A stretch of 64,000 bases of DNA from Gimesia aquarii (GTDB lineage Bacteria; Planctomycetota; Planctomycetia; Planctomycetales; Planctomycetaceae), in the NCBI RefSeq assembly GCF_007748175.1, contig NZ_CP037422.1:3168020-3232019 (forward strand), given 5' to 3'. Below the pieces are notes generated by a model. That model had not been told where the DNA came from. It did no database searches and saw only the letters and a program-made list of their open reading frames with translations. Each line of letters starts with the position of its first letter. The first letter of the stretch is position 1. Position numbers and translations under genes: made by a program. Positions 47,483 to 55,676 of this stretch are shown here, piece by piece.

Positions 47483-47803
47483 GTGATTCAACTTAATTTA
47501 ACTCTAGGAAATTTATCAGGAAAACAAAAGCTATTCAAGGAACTCTTTGAAGGTCAGGTTCTTGGGTGGATTTTAGCGGCTTTCATTATCAGTTTTTTGA
47601 TTTGGTTGACCGTAAGGATCGTAGGGCGTTTTCGGGAAAATGAGGATCGTCATGTTGATACATCTGAATTACTTCTACAATTCTCAGAAATGCGCCGAGA
47701 AGGTGACCTCACCGACGATGAATTCCGATCCATCAAAAAACGGCTTACTGACCTGCCCGATAAAGGTCTCAAAGAAAATGAAGCTACTGATCAAATAGAA
47801 TAG
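47483..47803 (+). CDS. Small membrane protein with SHOCT-like C-terminus
   Basis: 106 aa. GTG start by default, because no ATG lies upstream in frame and the next ATG would remove the membrane span; no strong ribosome binding site. One span (VLGWILAAFIISFLIWLTVR) is followed by a basic/acidic linker and a short helical motif LLQFSEMRREGDLTDDEFRS that resembles SHOCT domains. Function unknown. It precedes clpX by 218 bp and is probably not co-transcribed. Confidence 0.65.
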   Translation: MIQLNLTLGNLSGKQKLFKELFEGQVLGWILAAFIISFLIWLTVRIVGRFRENEDRHVDTSELLLQFSEMRREGDLTDDEFRSIKKRLTDLPDKGLKENEATDQIE

Positions 47804-48021: not shown

Positions 48022-49305
48022 ATGCCCACCGGACGAGATATCACCTCTGGAAAACGTAATTCTTCTGGGAAGAAAAATGCAAACTGTTCTTTTTGTAGAA
48101 AAAGTTATCGCGAAGTTGGCCCCTTAGTAGAGGGTCCAGACAACGCGTACATCTGCGGAGAATGTATTGAAGTATGTCAATCAATACTGGAACAAGAGCA
48201 TCGACGTAGAGGAACTACAAAGAAACTCTTTAAGAATGTTCCTACACCTCGCGAAATTGTAACTCACTTGAATGATTACGTCATTGGTCAGGAACGAGCC
48301 AAAAAAATCATGGCTGTTGCTGTGCACAACCATTATAAGAGACTCATGCATGCCGAAGATGATAGTTCGGAAGTCGAACTTGATAAATCCAATATCCTCC
48401 TGATTGGACCAACAGGATCCGGGAAGACATTGCTGGCAAAAAGCTTGGCGCGTTATCTCCAAGTTCCCTTTGCAATCGGAGATGCGACAACCCTTACGGA
48501 AGCTGGCTATGTTGGTGAAGATGTCGAAAACCTTTTATTGAAATTATTGCATGCTGCTGACTTTGATGTTGAAGCAGCACAAAGAGGAATTCTGTTTATT
48601 GACGAGATTGATAAGATCGGAAAAACGAGTCAGAATGTCTCAATTACACGTGATGTTTCAGGCGAAGGGGTCCAGCAGGCTTTACTTAAGATGCTGGAAG
48701 GAACTGTTGCCAACGTTCCTCCACAGGGAGGTCGTAAACACCCTGAGCAACAATATATTCAGTTAGACACGACCAATATTCTCTTTATCTGTGGCGGAAC
48801 GTTTGTAGGCCTGGAAGATATTGTAGGTAAACGTCTTGGTCGAAAAACGATCGGCTTTGGTCAGTCTGGCCAACAGAAAGAGCAGGAAAAGACGAAAAAC
48901 GAATTACTTGCTCACGCTTCAGTCGATGATGTCTTAGAATTCGGGCTGATACCAGAGCTTCTTGGACGTCTTCCCGTACTATCATCATTGGCCCAACTCG
49001 GCGAGGATGATCTGGTTAAGGTATTAACTGAGCCTAAAAACTCACTCGTGAAGCAGTTCCATAAATTCTTTGAAATGGAAAATGCAAAACTCGAATTCAC
49101 TGATGCGGCTCTTCATGAAATCGCATGTATTGCACAAAAGAAAAATACAGGGGCTCGAGGCTTACGCAGTGTTATCGAACAGGCAATGTTTGATATTATG
49201 TTTGAGCTTCCCGAACAAGAAGAGGGCAAAAAATATGTGGTCACACCTGAAGTCATCCAGGGAACAGAACAATTATTCCCCACGGATGATTCAGCAGCCG
49301 CATAG
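48022..49305 (+). CDS. clpX: ClpX, ATP-dependent unfoldase of the ClpXP protease
   Basis: 427 aa. ClpX unfolds tagged substrates and feeds them to ClpP. The N-terminal zinc-binding domain has C22, C25, C45 and C48. Walker A is GPTGSGKT (128-135), followed by the ClpX motif [13 protein letters not shown], Walker [10 protein letters not shown], the pore loop and sensor regions, and the IGF-type ClpP-binding loop (KTIGFGQSG). GAAGGGA precedes the ATG. clpP and tig, often next to clpX, are not adjacent. A strong intrinsic terminator follows, so the next three genes are a separate unit. Confidence 0.97.
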
Positions 49306-49354
49306 ACTTCCAGCCACCCAGTCCCTATAATTAATTCGAGAAATGATCACATTT

Positions 49355-49388
49355 CCCGCCGAAGTCTTTATCTTCGGCGGGTTTTCTT
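49355..49388 (+). terminator. Intrinsic terminator after clpX
   Basis: CCCGCCGAAG-TCTTTAT-CTTCGGCGGG forms a perfect 10-bp GC-rich stem with a 7-nt loop, followed by TTTTCTT. It lies 49 bp after the clpX stop and 16 bp before the FHA gene. Confidence 0.9.
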
Positions 49389-49403
49389 ACTTGTGGCTGA
49401 GTC

Positions 49404-49973
49404 ATGAAAATTCGACTGAACGTCCAAAATCCCTCAAAAAAATCCAAACCAATCACACTCACAAAAAACACGCTTATTGGGAGAGCATCTGATTGTGATT
49501 TGAAGCTAAACTCCGATCTAGTCAGTCGTTATCACTGTAAAATTTTTCTGACTGATTCAGTTGCTTTACTGCATGACCTGGGCAGTTCAAATGGTACCTT
49601 TATAGACGGAAAAAAACTCACCCCCAAACGTGACACTAAATTGTCTTCGGGCAGTCTACTTTCAATCGCCGATGTAAGTTTTCGGATTGAGTATGATTCC
49701 CAGGAATTCCTTGAAGTAGGATCAACAATTCATTTAAATAGTCTTGATGAACTTACTTCAGATAATCCACTCGTTTCAGTTTCTGATGACGTTGTTCCCA
49801 TCGATTCACCTGCGGAAATTTCACTCCCTGAAAATCACAAGCATCCAGATCAGAAGAAACCGAAGGACACTGTTACGATTGAAGAATATTCTCCCGATGA
49901 TCAGACAGATGAAAACAAAAAGACAATTCAATTTCCCGAAATTGACCTGACCGACAATATGGAAGAAGATTGA
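49404..49973 (+). CDS. FHA-domain protein
   Basis: 189 aa, probably cytoplasmic. The N-terminal 100 residues form a forkhead-associated domain with all signature residues: GRASDCDLKLN (Gly-Arg), SRYHCKI (Ser, His), and LGSSNGTFIDGKKL (Asn-Gly). FHA domains bind phosphothreonine, so this protein probably reads the output of a Ser/Thr kinase. The C-terminal 90 residues are acidic, rich in Asp/Glu/Ser/Pro and Thr, and could be a kinase target. The next gene, a CaMKII-hub homologue, starts 33 bp downstream; together with the receiver-like gene they look like one operon. Confidence 0.9.
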   Translation: MKIRLNVQNPSKKSKPITLTKNTLIGRASDCDLKLNSDLVSRYHCKIFLTDSVALLHDLGSSNGTFIDGKKLTPKRDTKLSSGSLLSIADVSFRIEYDSQEFLEVGSTIHLNSLDELTSDNPLVSVSDDVVPIDSPAEISLPENHKHPDQKKPKDTVTIEEYSPDDQTDENKKTIQFPEIDLTDNMEED

Positions 49974-50006
49974 CACAACTTAAACTTTCTTAGACGGGAT
50001 TCATTT

Positions 50007-50393
50007 ATGTCAGATAATGATGTTCAACAGCTCTTGAAATTAAATAAACAATTACTTGATGCCATTGATCACAAAGACTGGAATACTTATACCGCCCTTT
50101 GTGATGAAGAATTGACATCGTTTGAGCCAGAATCAGAAGGGCACTTAATTTCCGGAATGGATTTTCACCGTTTTTACTTTGAGATGAACCCAACGGGGAG
50201 ACCGAGGCAATCCACAATCAGTTCCCCCATGGTTTCCATTATGGGTGACGTTGCACTCGTAACCTTCGTTCGAATCGTCCAGACCATTGATGAACATGGT
50301 CATGATTCAAGTTCTGCCTTTGAAGAAACACGTATTTGGCAAAAACAGAACGATGAATGGCAGCATGTTCATTTTCACCGATCAATCGTATAA
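50007..50393 (+). CDS. CaMKII association-domain (hub) homologue, NTF2-like fold
   Basis: 128 aa. The sequence closely follows the association domain of animal Ca2+/calmodulin-dependent kinase II, which builds 12-14-subunit rings: LLDAIDHKDWNTYTALCD, LTSFEPESEG, GMDFHRFYFE, FVRIVQTID, FEETRIWQKQ, and WQHVHFHRS. The residues lining the hub pocket in CaMKII (as I remember them, His395, Arg433 and Arg453) correspond to H54, R89 and R109 here. There is no kinase domain. Stand-alone bacterial and algal hub homologues are known, so the domain itself is not new. The setting between an FHA protein and a receiver-like protein is the notable point. 17 bp separate it from the next gene. Confidence 0.88.
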   Translation: MSDNDVQQLLKLNKQLLDAIDHKDWNTYTALCDEELTSFEPESEGHLISGMDFHRFYFEMNPTGRPRQSTISSPMVSIMGDVALVTFVRIVQTIDEHGHDSSSAFEETRIWQKQNDEWQHVHFHRSIV

Positions 50394-50410
50394 AGATTTC
50401 ACGTTAAATA

Positions 50411-50794
50411 ATGAATGAACCCACGCAAACACCTCAAATTGTCATTCTTTGCTCAGACATGCTTTTTCTAAGCAAGATCACAGGAGTTGCGAAACATCTG
50501 GATCTCTCGTTTTGTACTGTCCTCAGTGCTAAAAGGGCTTCAGAATCGATTATTGAAGGAACAAGACAACTACTACTGGTAGATCTCAACCAGCCTGACC
50601 TGAACTGGCAACAACTTGCATCAATTCATGATCGTTATTCAAATGTGGTCAGCATTGCGTTCGGACCACATGTGGATACGGAGGGTCTTGAAAAAGCTAA
50701 AGCAGCAGGGTGTACTCAAGTATTGCCACGCAGTCAATTTTCTGCACAGCTTCCTCAGCTCTTGCAAACAGCACTTTCAGTAGAAACAGACTAG
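50411..50794 (+). CDS. Degenerate response-regulator receiver-like protein
   Basis: 127 aa single domain. The beta-alpha pattern fits a receiver: TPQIVILCSDMLFLSKITGVAK, then LLLVDLNQPDLNWQQL with an Asp (in LVDL) at the phosphoacceptor-like position, VVSIAFGPHVD, and VLPRSQFSAQL. The acidic pair after the first strand is absent (CSDM only) and the conserved Lys is replaced (VLPRS), so phosphotransfer is doubtful. No output domain. It lies 17 bp after the hub gene. It may be a protein-protein interaction module for the same system. Confidence 0.72.
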   Translation: MNEPTQTPQIVILCSDMLFLSKITGVAKHLDLSFCTVLSAKRASESIIEGTRQLLLVDLNQPDLNWQQLASIHDRYSNVVSIAFGPHVDTEGLEKAKAAGCTQVLPRSQFSAQLPQLLQTALSVETD

Positions 50795-50818: not shown

Positions 50819-52615
50819 TTATGTCAATTGGAATTTCTTTAGTAGTCCTTCATAAGCCTTTTTACCATGCTTAAGATCGACAACTGCACTGATGCGGGTT
50901 TCGCTGGTATTTATCATCTGAATATTGATATTGGATTCTGCCAGTGCATGAAACATGGATTGCCCCACACCCGTATGACTGCGAAGCCCAATTCCGACAA
51001 CGGAAAGCTTCGCAATTTCCGCTTCATGACTGACTTCTGCCTCACCCCATTCAGAAAGTAGAGGCTCTACCAATTCCAGGCTTTTTTCCAAAGAGGTTCT
51101 CGGAACTGTAAATGACAAGTGTGCCTGCTCTTCCTCACCCATATTCTGCACGATCATATCGACAGACACGCCTCCCTCAGCCACAACAGAAAACAGTCTT
51201 GAGCAGATCCCAGGACTATCTGGTAAATTTCTGACCGTCACGCGAGACTGACTTTGATCAAGTAATACCTCGCTGACGACGATATCTTCCATATTGGCTA
51301 GCTGATCGATGATTTCCTGCTCTAACTGCGACATTTTTTGTACTTGTATTTCAGTATCAGAATCATCTGATTGTTTCTCGTTAGTAGCAAATTCATAACT
51401 TGGGAGGCGATTAAGCTCAAAGCCGTTATGAATGACTTGTACTGCTTCTTCACACTGGTTTCGATCTACGAGAACCGTCACTTTAATTTCGCTGGTGGTA
51501 ATCATGCCAACATTAATGTCGGCATCGGCCAGGATTGAGAACATACGACTAGCCACACCATAATGATTTCGCATTCCGCTACCAACAATCGAAACCTTAG
51601 AAAGATTTGTCCCATGTTGAATCTTTCCTGCACCGATTACATCAATCGCTTCGCTGGCAGCAGTCAGGGTTTCTGCCAGGTCTGACTGAGGAACGGTAAA
51701 AGAAACACGAGCCACCCCTCCAGTTCCCACATCCTGAACGATCATATCCAAACTAATCTTCCGTTCTGCCATGCGGGTAAAAATACCGCTCATGACACCA
51801 GGCTCATCAGGAATGTCAGTCAGACTGACTCTGACTTCATCTCGAACAAAAGCAATTCCTGTGACTACTGGTGCTTCAGTGAGTGGTTGGATAGCGATCA
51901 AAGTTCCCTCGCCATCTGAGAAAGAGGGGCGTACCCTCAATGGTACTTTATATTTTTTTGCAAATTCGATAGACCGTGAATGCATCACCCCGGCTCCCAA
52001 ACTTGCCAGTTCGAGCATTTCGTCATACGAAATGCTGTCCACTTTGTGAGCTTCAGGGACAATGCGCGGGTCTGTTGTGAAAACTCCTTCAACATCAGTA
52101 TAGATCTCACACATATCAGCATCCAGAACAGCGGCTAACGCTGTTGCCGTTGTATCACTTCCACCTCGCCCGAGCGTGGTAATATTCCAATCTTTATCTC
52201 TTCCCTGAAAACCGGCGGCAATGACAATCTTTCCTTCGTTGAGTGCTGTTCGCATTCTATCTGTCGAAATCGAAATAATTCGTGCTTTCGTATGAGAGGA
52301 ATCAGTAACGACGCCAATTTGTGAACCAGTCAGACTAATTGCTTCTCCTCCGAGCTTGTGAATCGCCATAGCCATTAATGCGACAGATTCCTGTTCGCCA
52401 GTCGAAAGTAGCATGTCCATTTCACGCGGAGTAGGGTCATCTGTAATTTCAGCGGCTAGCCTGACAAGCTCGTCGGTCTTCTTTCCGCGTGCGCTCACGA
52501 CCATGACTACCTGATGTCCTGCCTGATGCATGTCAGTGGCACGCTGAGCCGCAGCTTGAATCTTGCTAGTATCGGCTACACTTGTTCCACCAAATTTCTG
52601 GACAATCAGTGACAC
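50819..52615 (-). CDS. lysC: Aspartate kinase with four ACT domains
   Basis: Catalyses the first step from aspartate to Lys, Thr, Met and meso-DAP. 598 aa, well above the usual 400-460. The kinase domain starts with [11 protein letters not shown] and contains the [20 protein letters not shown] and [13 protein letters not shown] motifs. Two ACT pairs follow: one about residues 265-400 ([20 protein letters not shown], then [20 protein letters not shown]) and a second about 430-598 ([20 protein letters not shown], then [20 protein letters not shown]). The four-ACT form is known in cyanobacteria and planctomycetes and gives multi-effector control. GTG start with GGAG 7 nt upstream. It follows murG by 263 bp on the same strand; DAP made through this path feeds MurE. 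Confidence 0.93.
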
Positions 52616-54119: not shown

Positions 54120-55676
54120 TCAAGCCTCCTCTTCATCTTCGTACTCTTCATCTTCGTACTCTTCATCTCCGGATTCTTCATCTTCGTACTCTTCATCTTC
54201 GTACTCTTCATCTTCGTACTCTTCATCTTCGGACTCTTCATCTTCGAACTCTTCGTCTTCGAACTCTTCGTCTTCGGACTCTTCATCTTCGTACTCTTCA
54301 TCTTCGTACTCTTCATCTTCGTGCTCTTCATCTTCGGACTCTTCATCTTCGGACTCTTCATCTTCGGACTCTTCATCTTCGGACTCTTCATCTTCGGACT
54401 CTTCATCTTCGGACTCTTCATCTTCGGACTCTTCATCTTCGGACTCTTCGTCTTCGGACTCTTCAGCCTCATAGATTGGCGATATCGTGGCGAGTTCTGA
54501 GATCGCTGCCTCTTCTGACAATGACCTGTCTTCATCTTCACTGTCGGTATCGATGAGTAACTCATCTTCCCCAGCTGATCGTGTCAAGCTGACAATAATA
54601 CCCAAAGAGAGCAGGCTCACCATCAAATTCGTTCCGCCATAACTAATCAAAGGATGCGATATTCCTTTTGGAGGTACCATGGCTGTCACAACCGAAACAT
54701 TGATAATCGCCTGCAAAACTAACTGCAGTAACAGTGTGAATCCCACAACATAAGCAAATGATTTCTGATTTTGTGACCGCAAAATATTGTAACCAGCAAG
54801 AAACAATCCTAACCAAAGTCCGACAATCCCAAGTGTTCCAATCAAACCAAGCTCTTCACCTGCTACCGAAAACACAAAATCGGTGTTGGCTTCTGGTAGG
54901 AAGCTCAATTTTTGAGCACCTTTCCCTAAACCAGATCCAGTCACTCCACCGGTTCCTAAAGCCATGAGAGACTGTTTGACTTGATAGGGAGCCGATTGCC
55001 AATTGGTCCAGGTATCAAGAAATCCACTGATACGCTTTAACTGATAGGGACGCAATGCGACTAAGACTCCCAATACGGGAATCGCACACAGCCCTCCCAC
55101 GACAAAGTTGCGCAGAGGCCACCCTCCCAAAAATAACGCGATTGTGACGCCACCAACCAGGAAAAGTGAAGTTCCCAAATCGGGTTGTTTCAACACAAGC
55201 GGTATAACAATTGCAAGAGGAACCAGTAAAAAGACCGTGCCTTTAATCCAATGCTTTAGAACTGTTCTGCGTTGAACCATAAGGCGTACTGTCAGAAGGG
55301 GCAGCGCAATTTTAGCAAGTTCAGAAGGTTGCAGTGAGATCGGTCCAAATCTCAGCCAGCGTTGTGCACCATTCACGCGCGTCCCAATTCCCGGCACAAG
55401 CACGAGTGCTAACAAAACAACCGTGACCCAAAAGAGAAGGGGAGCCCGATCATACCAGAAACGAGCGGGCAGATAAGAAGCAACCGAAGCAACAATGGCG
55501 GCAATCGTCAGAAACGTTAAATGCTTTGATAAGTAAACCTGCTCAAATTCAGTCGGCCAGGACGTAATACTGGCGCTGTGCACCATGAGCACACCCAACC
55601 CCAACAACGCACATGCCATTGAGATAAAAAGACTGCGATCATGTTCTGGATTTGATAAAAGCGAAGCCGACTTCAT
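54120..55676 (-). CDS. ftsW: FtsW, peptidoglycan glycosyltransferase, with acidic repeat tail
   Basis: 518 aa. The first about 375 residues are a normal SEDS protein with ten membrane spans; typical motifs include LVPGIGTRVNGAQRWL, GPISLQPSELAKIALP, KQPDLGTSLFLVGG, and PKGISHPLISYGGTNLM. FtsW polymerises lipid II at the division site with a class B PBP. The remaining about 140 residues are an acidic cytoplasmic tail whose last about 115 are pentapeptides of the form ExEDE (x = S, Y, F, H), encoded by a 15-bp repeat. Such a tail is not part of normal FtsW. FtsW without FtsZ is expected for this phylum. Upstream neighbour is mraY; murD is not between them. Confidence 0.93.
   Translation of the reverse strand: MKSASLLSNPEHDRSLFISMACALLGLGVLMVHSASITSWPTEFEQVYLSKHLTFLTIAAIVASVASYLPARFWYDRAPLLFWVTVVLLALVLVPGIGTRVNGAQRWLRFGPISLQPSELAKIALPLLTVRLMVQRRTVLKHWIKGTVFLLVPLAIVIPLVLKQPDLGTSLFLVGGVTIALFLGGWPLRNFVVGGLCAIPVLGVLVALRPYQLKRISGFLDTWTNWQSAPYQVKQSLMALGTGGVTGSGLGKGAQKLSFLPEANTDFVFSVAGEELGLIGTLGIVGLWLGLFLAGYNILRSQNQKSFAYVVGFTLLLQLVLQAIINVSVVTAMVPPKGISHPLISYGGTNLMVSLLSLGIIVSLTRSAGEDELLIDTDSEDEDRSLSEEAAISELATISPIYEAEESEDEESEDEESEDEESEDEESEDEESEDEESEDEESEDEESEDEEHEDEEYEDEEYEDEESEDEEFEDEEFEDEESEDEEYEDEEYEDEEYEDEESGDEEYEDEEYEDEEEA
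54130..54464 (-). repeat. 15-bp minisatellite inside ftsW
   Basis: About 22 tandem units of the 15-bp motif GAAGATGAAGAGTNC (- strand) encode ExEDE pentapeptides. The nine units nearest the start of the array are almost identical (Ser form); later units vary at one codon (Tyr, Phe, His, Ser). The unit length is a multiple of three, so copy number change alters tail length without shifting frame. Confidence 0.92.

Follow-up and report, generated by a model that had tools for sequence, protein, structure and literature searches.

A three-gene cassette encoding an FHA protein, a stand-alone CaMKII-type hub, and a predicted pseudo-receiver behind clpX in Gimesia aquarii and related planctomycetes

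An earlier note, made from the sequence alone, had described a cassette of three genes behind clpX in the window, i.e., the whole 64,000-nucleotide stretch of the Gimesia aquarii genome analyzed here. All three open reading frames (ORFs) lie where the note had placed them, and the spacings are exactly those that it gave, with 33 bp between the FHA and hub genes and 17 bp between the hub and receiver-like genes (Table 1). The cassette is bracketed by clpX and by lysC. Where synonymous sites were unsaturated, dN/dS was about 0.07 to 0.20 for the FHA gene, 0.03 to 0.04 for the hub gene, and 0.09 to 0.14 for the receiver gene; judged by these ratios, all three genes evolve as proteins under purifying selection, the hub most strongly. 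Two further genes of the window are listed for their own features: a small membrane protein gene immediately 5' of clpX, which is kept in that position across many genera, and a gene whose predicted product is FtsW/RodA-like and has a C-terminal tail that is long, acidic, and repetitive, with ESEDE repeats.

Table 1. Features of the cassette and its surroundings (positions in the window)
Feature	Position	Strand	Basis
Small membrane protein	47483-47803	+	weak SHOCT match
clpX	48022-49305	+	
Promoter-like site TAGACT-N17-TATAAT, overlapping the clpX stop codon	49303-49331	+	0.02 expected per window
G+C-rich terminator-like hairpin with U tract, in the clpX-FHA interval	49355-49381	+	stem of 10 bp, 8 G-C pairs
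FHA-domain protein, 189 aa	49404-49973	+	Pfam PF00498, 5.2e-19
Stand-alone CaMKII-type hub (association domain), 128 aa	50007-50393	+	Pfam PF08332, 2.8e-39; human CaMKII alpha hub, 5.3e-34
Predicted pseudo-receiver, 127 aa	50411-50794	+	receiver fold of the model; family alignment
lysC	50819-52615	-	
Predicted FtsW/RodA-like protein	54120-55676	-	ORF list

The cassette had been thought to be isolated from clpX by a strong terminator. The hairpin itself is real: its stem is directly followed on the 3' side by TTTTC, all of its cells are paired across 15 Gimesia genomes (14 distinct rows), and one pair is compensated among the distinct rows (A-U/G-U/G-C). The idea of a clean isolation did not stand, since the hairpin is preceded by a promoter-like site that is itself conserved. 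In Gimesia, this site has the same 17-nt spacing throughout, with TAGACT present in 15 of 15 genomes and TATAAT in 13 of 15. Given this upstream site and the distance of only 22 bases between the end of the hairpin and the FHA ATG, the cassette's own leader probably includes the hairpin as well. The two elements (window 49303-49403) look like an attenuator-type leader; if the putative promoter is real, transcripts of the cassette would begin ahead of the hairpin, which may then restrict their level besides ending the clpX transcript. An Rfam search of the cassette gave no match above the curated cut-off.

The central gene of the cassette encodes a protein in which the three motifs highlighted previously (DFHRFYFE, FVRI, and FEETRIW) are all found. 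A profile built from 19 planctomycete hubs and run against PDB families matched every solved CaMKII hub with E-values of 1e-37 to 1e-47, compared with 1.6e-3 for the next-best family and 0.09 for the bacterial CaMKII_AD structure 3h51. The AlphaFold model of the protein (pLDDT of 93.6) gave a consistent picture in Foldseek, in which the top 50 matches were all CaMKII-family hubs with TM scores of about 0.9. The possibility raised in the earlier note that the protein belongs to an unrelated SnoaL/NTF2 clade was thus settled in favor of CaMKII by both the profile E-values and Foldseek, and, as far as sequence and model can tell, the protein is a true CaMKII-type association domain. We rejected a CaMKII holoenzyme as an identity, because the hub of such an enzyme is fused to a kinase domain under calmodulin control and the gene here is a stand-alone one of 128 aa. 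Kinase or receiver fusions were sought in six long hub ORFs, and none was found.

In CaMKII alpha, residues H395, R433, R453, and R469 are required for the binding of GHB analogues (PMC12148480), the ring depends critically on the lateral F394-Q436 contact (PMC11199487), and the F397A mutation sets dimers free (PMC4859805). Their equivalents are retained in planctomycetes. The pocket residues H54, R89, and R109, named in the earlier note as kept, and also R125 do not vary among 100 distinct planctomycete hubs, which were collected with scan patterns that include R125 and adjacent His residues and do not include F53, H54, R89, Q92, or R109. The lateral contact residues F53 and Q92 are likewise present in all 100, as is an extra His at the position of I464, and F56, the equivalent of the aromatic F397, is F in 90 and Y in 9 of them. 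Two non-hub PF08332 proteins have lost most of these pocket and ring-contact residues. That bacterial hub homologues are known, as had been stated, is borne out by the stand-alone hub of the planctomycete Pirellula sp. SH-Sr6A, which the accessible text of PMC9120016 cites as a reported 14-mer. CaMKII hubs are characterized by a double ring of 12 to 16 subunits. For the Gimesia hub, a ring and its stoichiometry are predicted from residue conservation, and the putative His/Arg pocket would be suited to a small acid or to the carboxylate end of a peptide.

An invariant, charged pocket is also what an active site would look like, and the hub might accordingly be read as a small enzyme with a catalytic activity like that of iota-carbonic anhydrases or of SnoaL-like cyclases. 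The domains of iota-carbonic anhydrases resemble CaMKII-AD (PMC8395977), and the Pfam models DUF4440 and SnoaL_3 match the hub protein too, more weakly than CaMKII_AD does. Retention of the CaMKII ring contacts argues against catalysis, as does the comparison with iota-carbonic anhydrases in particular: their HHHSS motif reads HFHRS in the hub (i.e., the His and Ser positions are kept and the motif is not), and no structure of this class appears among the hub-profile matches up to an E-value of 10. On the latter two grounds, iota-carbonic anhydrase was rejected as an identity, and an enzymatic hub of either kind appears improbable.

Upstream of the hub, the FHA domain spans residues 18 to 96, approximately, and is followed by an acidic tail. 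Its identification in the earlier note is upheld by the Pfam match and by the predicted phosphothreonine (pThr)-binding residues (GR, SRYH, and SSNG), which are intact and conserved: G26, R27, S41, H44, and G64 are invariant among 24 relatives, and R42 and N63 are nearly so. It is from these FHA residues alone that phospho-dependence of the system is predicted. Most FHA relatives outside Gimesia share a D..L..FL..L-like tail end, which the Gimesia proteins do not have and which is a possible docking motif. Among clpX-following FHA proteins, this motif occurs with or without a nearby hub gene; FHA genes that carry it are L046, L048, L049, L087, L091, L092, L094, L100, L112, L123, L163, L183, L196, L201, L219, and L222. 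The genome has writers of the pThr mark, given its 34 Pkinase matches (two of them within one ORF). Kinase genes beside hubs are not enriched, being found at 2 of 80 loci, which is about background. At one locus (L237:6799-9896), an FHA-kinase fusion gene and then a second Ser/Thr kinase gene are divergent from a hub-receiver pair.

The third product was described earlier as a degenerate receiver, and this description fits what we found. The model shows the alternating beta-alpha fold of receivers (pLDDT of 92.3), with a best Foldseek E-value to receivers of 2.7e-6. A Pfam search with the protein of the window gave no match, and Response_reg was matched by 13 of 30 members of its family. In the family alignment, D16 is kept in all members and Asp58 in 90% or more. 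The window protein has both D16 and D58; one acidic residue is missing, the position of the switch Thr is Gly, and that of the Lys is Arg. Because of the latter two replacements, we infer that the protein is a pseudo-receiver that has lost switching. The pseudo-receiver family (L131-L150), marked by the motifs DL.F..K(I/V) and AFGPHV, is widespread in planctomycetes, with about one copy per genome in the sampled family.

Conservation of the gene set was assessed in a family sample of 150 genomes, 89 of which have a detected hub. The complete cassette occurs in 11 of 11 Gimesia genomes of this sample and in genomes of six other genera, so the three genes proved to be neighbors in related genomes, as the cassette idea of the earlier note supposed. 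Gimesia genomes with a detected hub show the order clpX-FHA-hub-receiver-lysC, barring contig ends and one FHA gene that is split by a frame break (L035:7320-7969), which is either a sequencing error or a real disruption. A receiver lies directly downstream of the hub, on the same strand and at a distance of 26 to 661 bp, for 41 of the 89 hubs (14 genera); as the receiver is roughly one per genome, only 0.004 such pairs would be expected by chance placement. The other 48 hubs have no receiver neighbor, and many are adjoined by neither partner. In the family sample, whether a genome has a hub is uncorrelated with whether it has the FHA or the receiver gene. Given these receiverless hubs and this lack of correlation, the cassette represents a frequent association and not an obligate system. 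In one clade (L180:3809-4705; also L164 and L172), a gene of the formylglycine-generating-enzyme (FGE-sulfatase) family replaces the FHA gene upstream of the hub-receiver pair.

The absence of presence-absence coupling would be expected if the three genes function separately and are passengers of synteny, linked mainly through the stable clpX-lysC region of the family. In Gimesia and its relatives, a large part of the linkage does come from a single locus. The hub tree is compatible with this as well: based on only 129 columns and poorly supported, it requires 11 changes of the receiver label, at least 3 of which fall on well-supported branches, so that its labels force just 3 changes. This tree is unrooted and therefore gives no direction for the origin of eukaryotic hubs (from planctomycetes to eukaryotes or the reverse). 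Against the passenger explanation, all 41 adjacent receivers lie downstream of the hub on its own strand, and each pairwise link recurs in other settings. Hub-receiver pairs are flanked variously by lysC, by argC (with panD between hub and receiver), by a DUF1598 gene, by a 3-keto-disaccharide hydrolase gene, or by a divergent clpX. Away from clpX, FHA-hub pairs were found in 8 genomes of 4 genera and FHA-receiver pairs in 2 genomes of 2 genera (other settings of the former being in g9, g49, g59, and g64 and of the latter in g54 and g68). Because FHA-hub, hub-receiver, and FHA-receiver pairs each recur at other loci, more than one frozen neighborhood is involved; on this gene-order evidence, plain synteny at clpX does not account for the recurring pairwise links, and we regard the passenger explanation as unlikely.

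The position next to clpX may itself carry functional meaning. In a ClpXP adaptor complex, which is in our assessment the strongest mechanistic rival, the receiver-like protein would act like CpdR or RssB in handing clients to ClpX, while the FHA protein would select pThr-bearing substrates and the ring would concentrate them. In 37 sampled genomes, clpX is immediately followed by an FHA orthologue, and a hub-receiver pair lies near a divergent clpX in another genus; in Caulobacter, moreover, PopZ is an assembly hub to which the receiver CpdR binds, and CpdR brings in ClpX and substrates (PMC11519897). The clpX-following FHA gene is accompanied by both hub and receiver genes in 23 genomes (7 genera), by the receiver gene only in 4 (2 genera), by the hub gene only in 1, and by neither in 9; outside Gimesia, it is as often with clpX alone as with hub and receiver genes. 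Plain synteny can place genes near clpX, no ClpX-binding motif was identified, and there are hub-receiver and FHA-hub pairs at loci remote from clpX, all of which makes an adaptor role quite unlikely.

Since related genera keep the genes together far beyond chance, the FHA, hub, and receiver-like products probably work as one signaling assembly. Gene linkage is what points to their partnership, and physical binding among them is predicted. More specifically, we give a probability of about 0.5 to a single planctomycete signaling or assembly module composed of a hub ring, a pseudo-receiver adaptor, and an FHA pThr reader. In such a module, copies of the hub protein, a stand-alone CaMKII-type association domain, would close into a ring, and each subunit would offer its His/Arg pocket to a ligand of the kind described above. 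The pseudo-receiver, as the commonest gene partner of the hub, would serve as an adaptor with little or no phosphoryl switching. One of the roughly 33 Ser/Thr kinases of the genome would write a pThr mark on client proteins, and the FHA protein would carry the marked clients to the ring. A bolder and rather doubtful extension is that the cassette corresponds to the CaMKII holoenzyme in split-gene form. On this reading, a ring hub would already have organized phospho-signaling by means of separate FHA and pseudo-receiver subunits before, or apart from, its fusion to a kinase, and it would have sensed an acidic ligand in the pocket that binds GHB in brain CaMKII.

Work on the CaMKII hub has dealt almost exclusively with its place in an animal kinase, and there is no settled explanation of why its charged pocket is conserved. 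In the present data, free-standing bacterial proteins, which recur alongside an FHA protein and a pseudo-receiver, keep this pocket and the ring contacts in every case. This provides specific candidate partners, together with a simple bacterial setting for studying what the hub does in the absence of a kinase, which ligand it naturally binds, and how it is tied to phosphorylation. The hub family and an oligomeric bacterial member are already known; no description of the gene set was found in the literature searched. This search, which left most subscription papers outside its reach, returned no paper joining CaMKII-type hubs with FHA and receiver genes, and for CaMKII and planctomycetes it returned nothing relevant beyond the mention of Pirellula. 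One paper covers both Gimesia and FHA domains, and its topic, as far as its accessible text goes, is kinase expansion.

Several known systems are comparable in part. Iota-carbonic anhydrases (COG4875/COG4337) share the broad NTF2-like fold and were once described as CaMKII-AD-like, but they differ from the hub in its lack of the HHHSS motif and of any hub-profile match to them. The Pirellula sp. SH-Sr6A hub is likewise described as a stand-alone bacterial CaMKII-type protein from the same phylum, with a reported oligomer; the accessible text of PMC9120016 gives no account of its gene neighbors or function. The CpdR-PopZ-ClpXP system of Caulobacter also brings ClpX together with a receiver protein and an assembly hub in one phospho-controlled assembly (PMC11519897). 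PopZ is unrelated to CaMKII hubs, however, and the link to ClpX in Gimesia is one of gene position only; CpdR is switched by phosphorylation (PMC11519897), whereas the Gimesia receiver is without the switch Thr and Lys. The closest likeness in fold and residues is to the CaMKII hub of metazoans and green algae (PF08332), with about 43% identity to human alpha and with the pocket His and three Arg residues, the Phe and Gln of the lateral contact, and the His residues of the vertical contact in common. The Gimesia hub differs in being encoded by a free-standing gene, with no kinase, no regulatory segment, and an extra His at the I464 position, and the planctomycete hubs differ in their conserved FHA and receiver-like gene neighbors.
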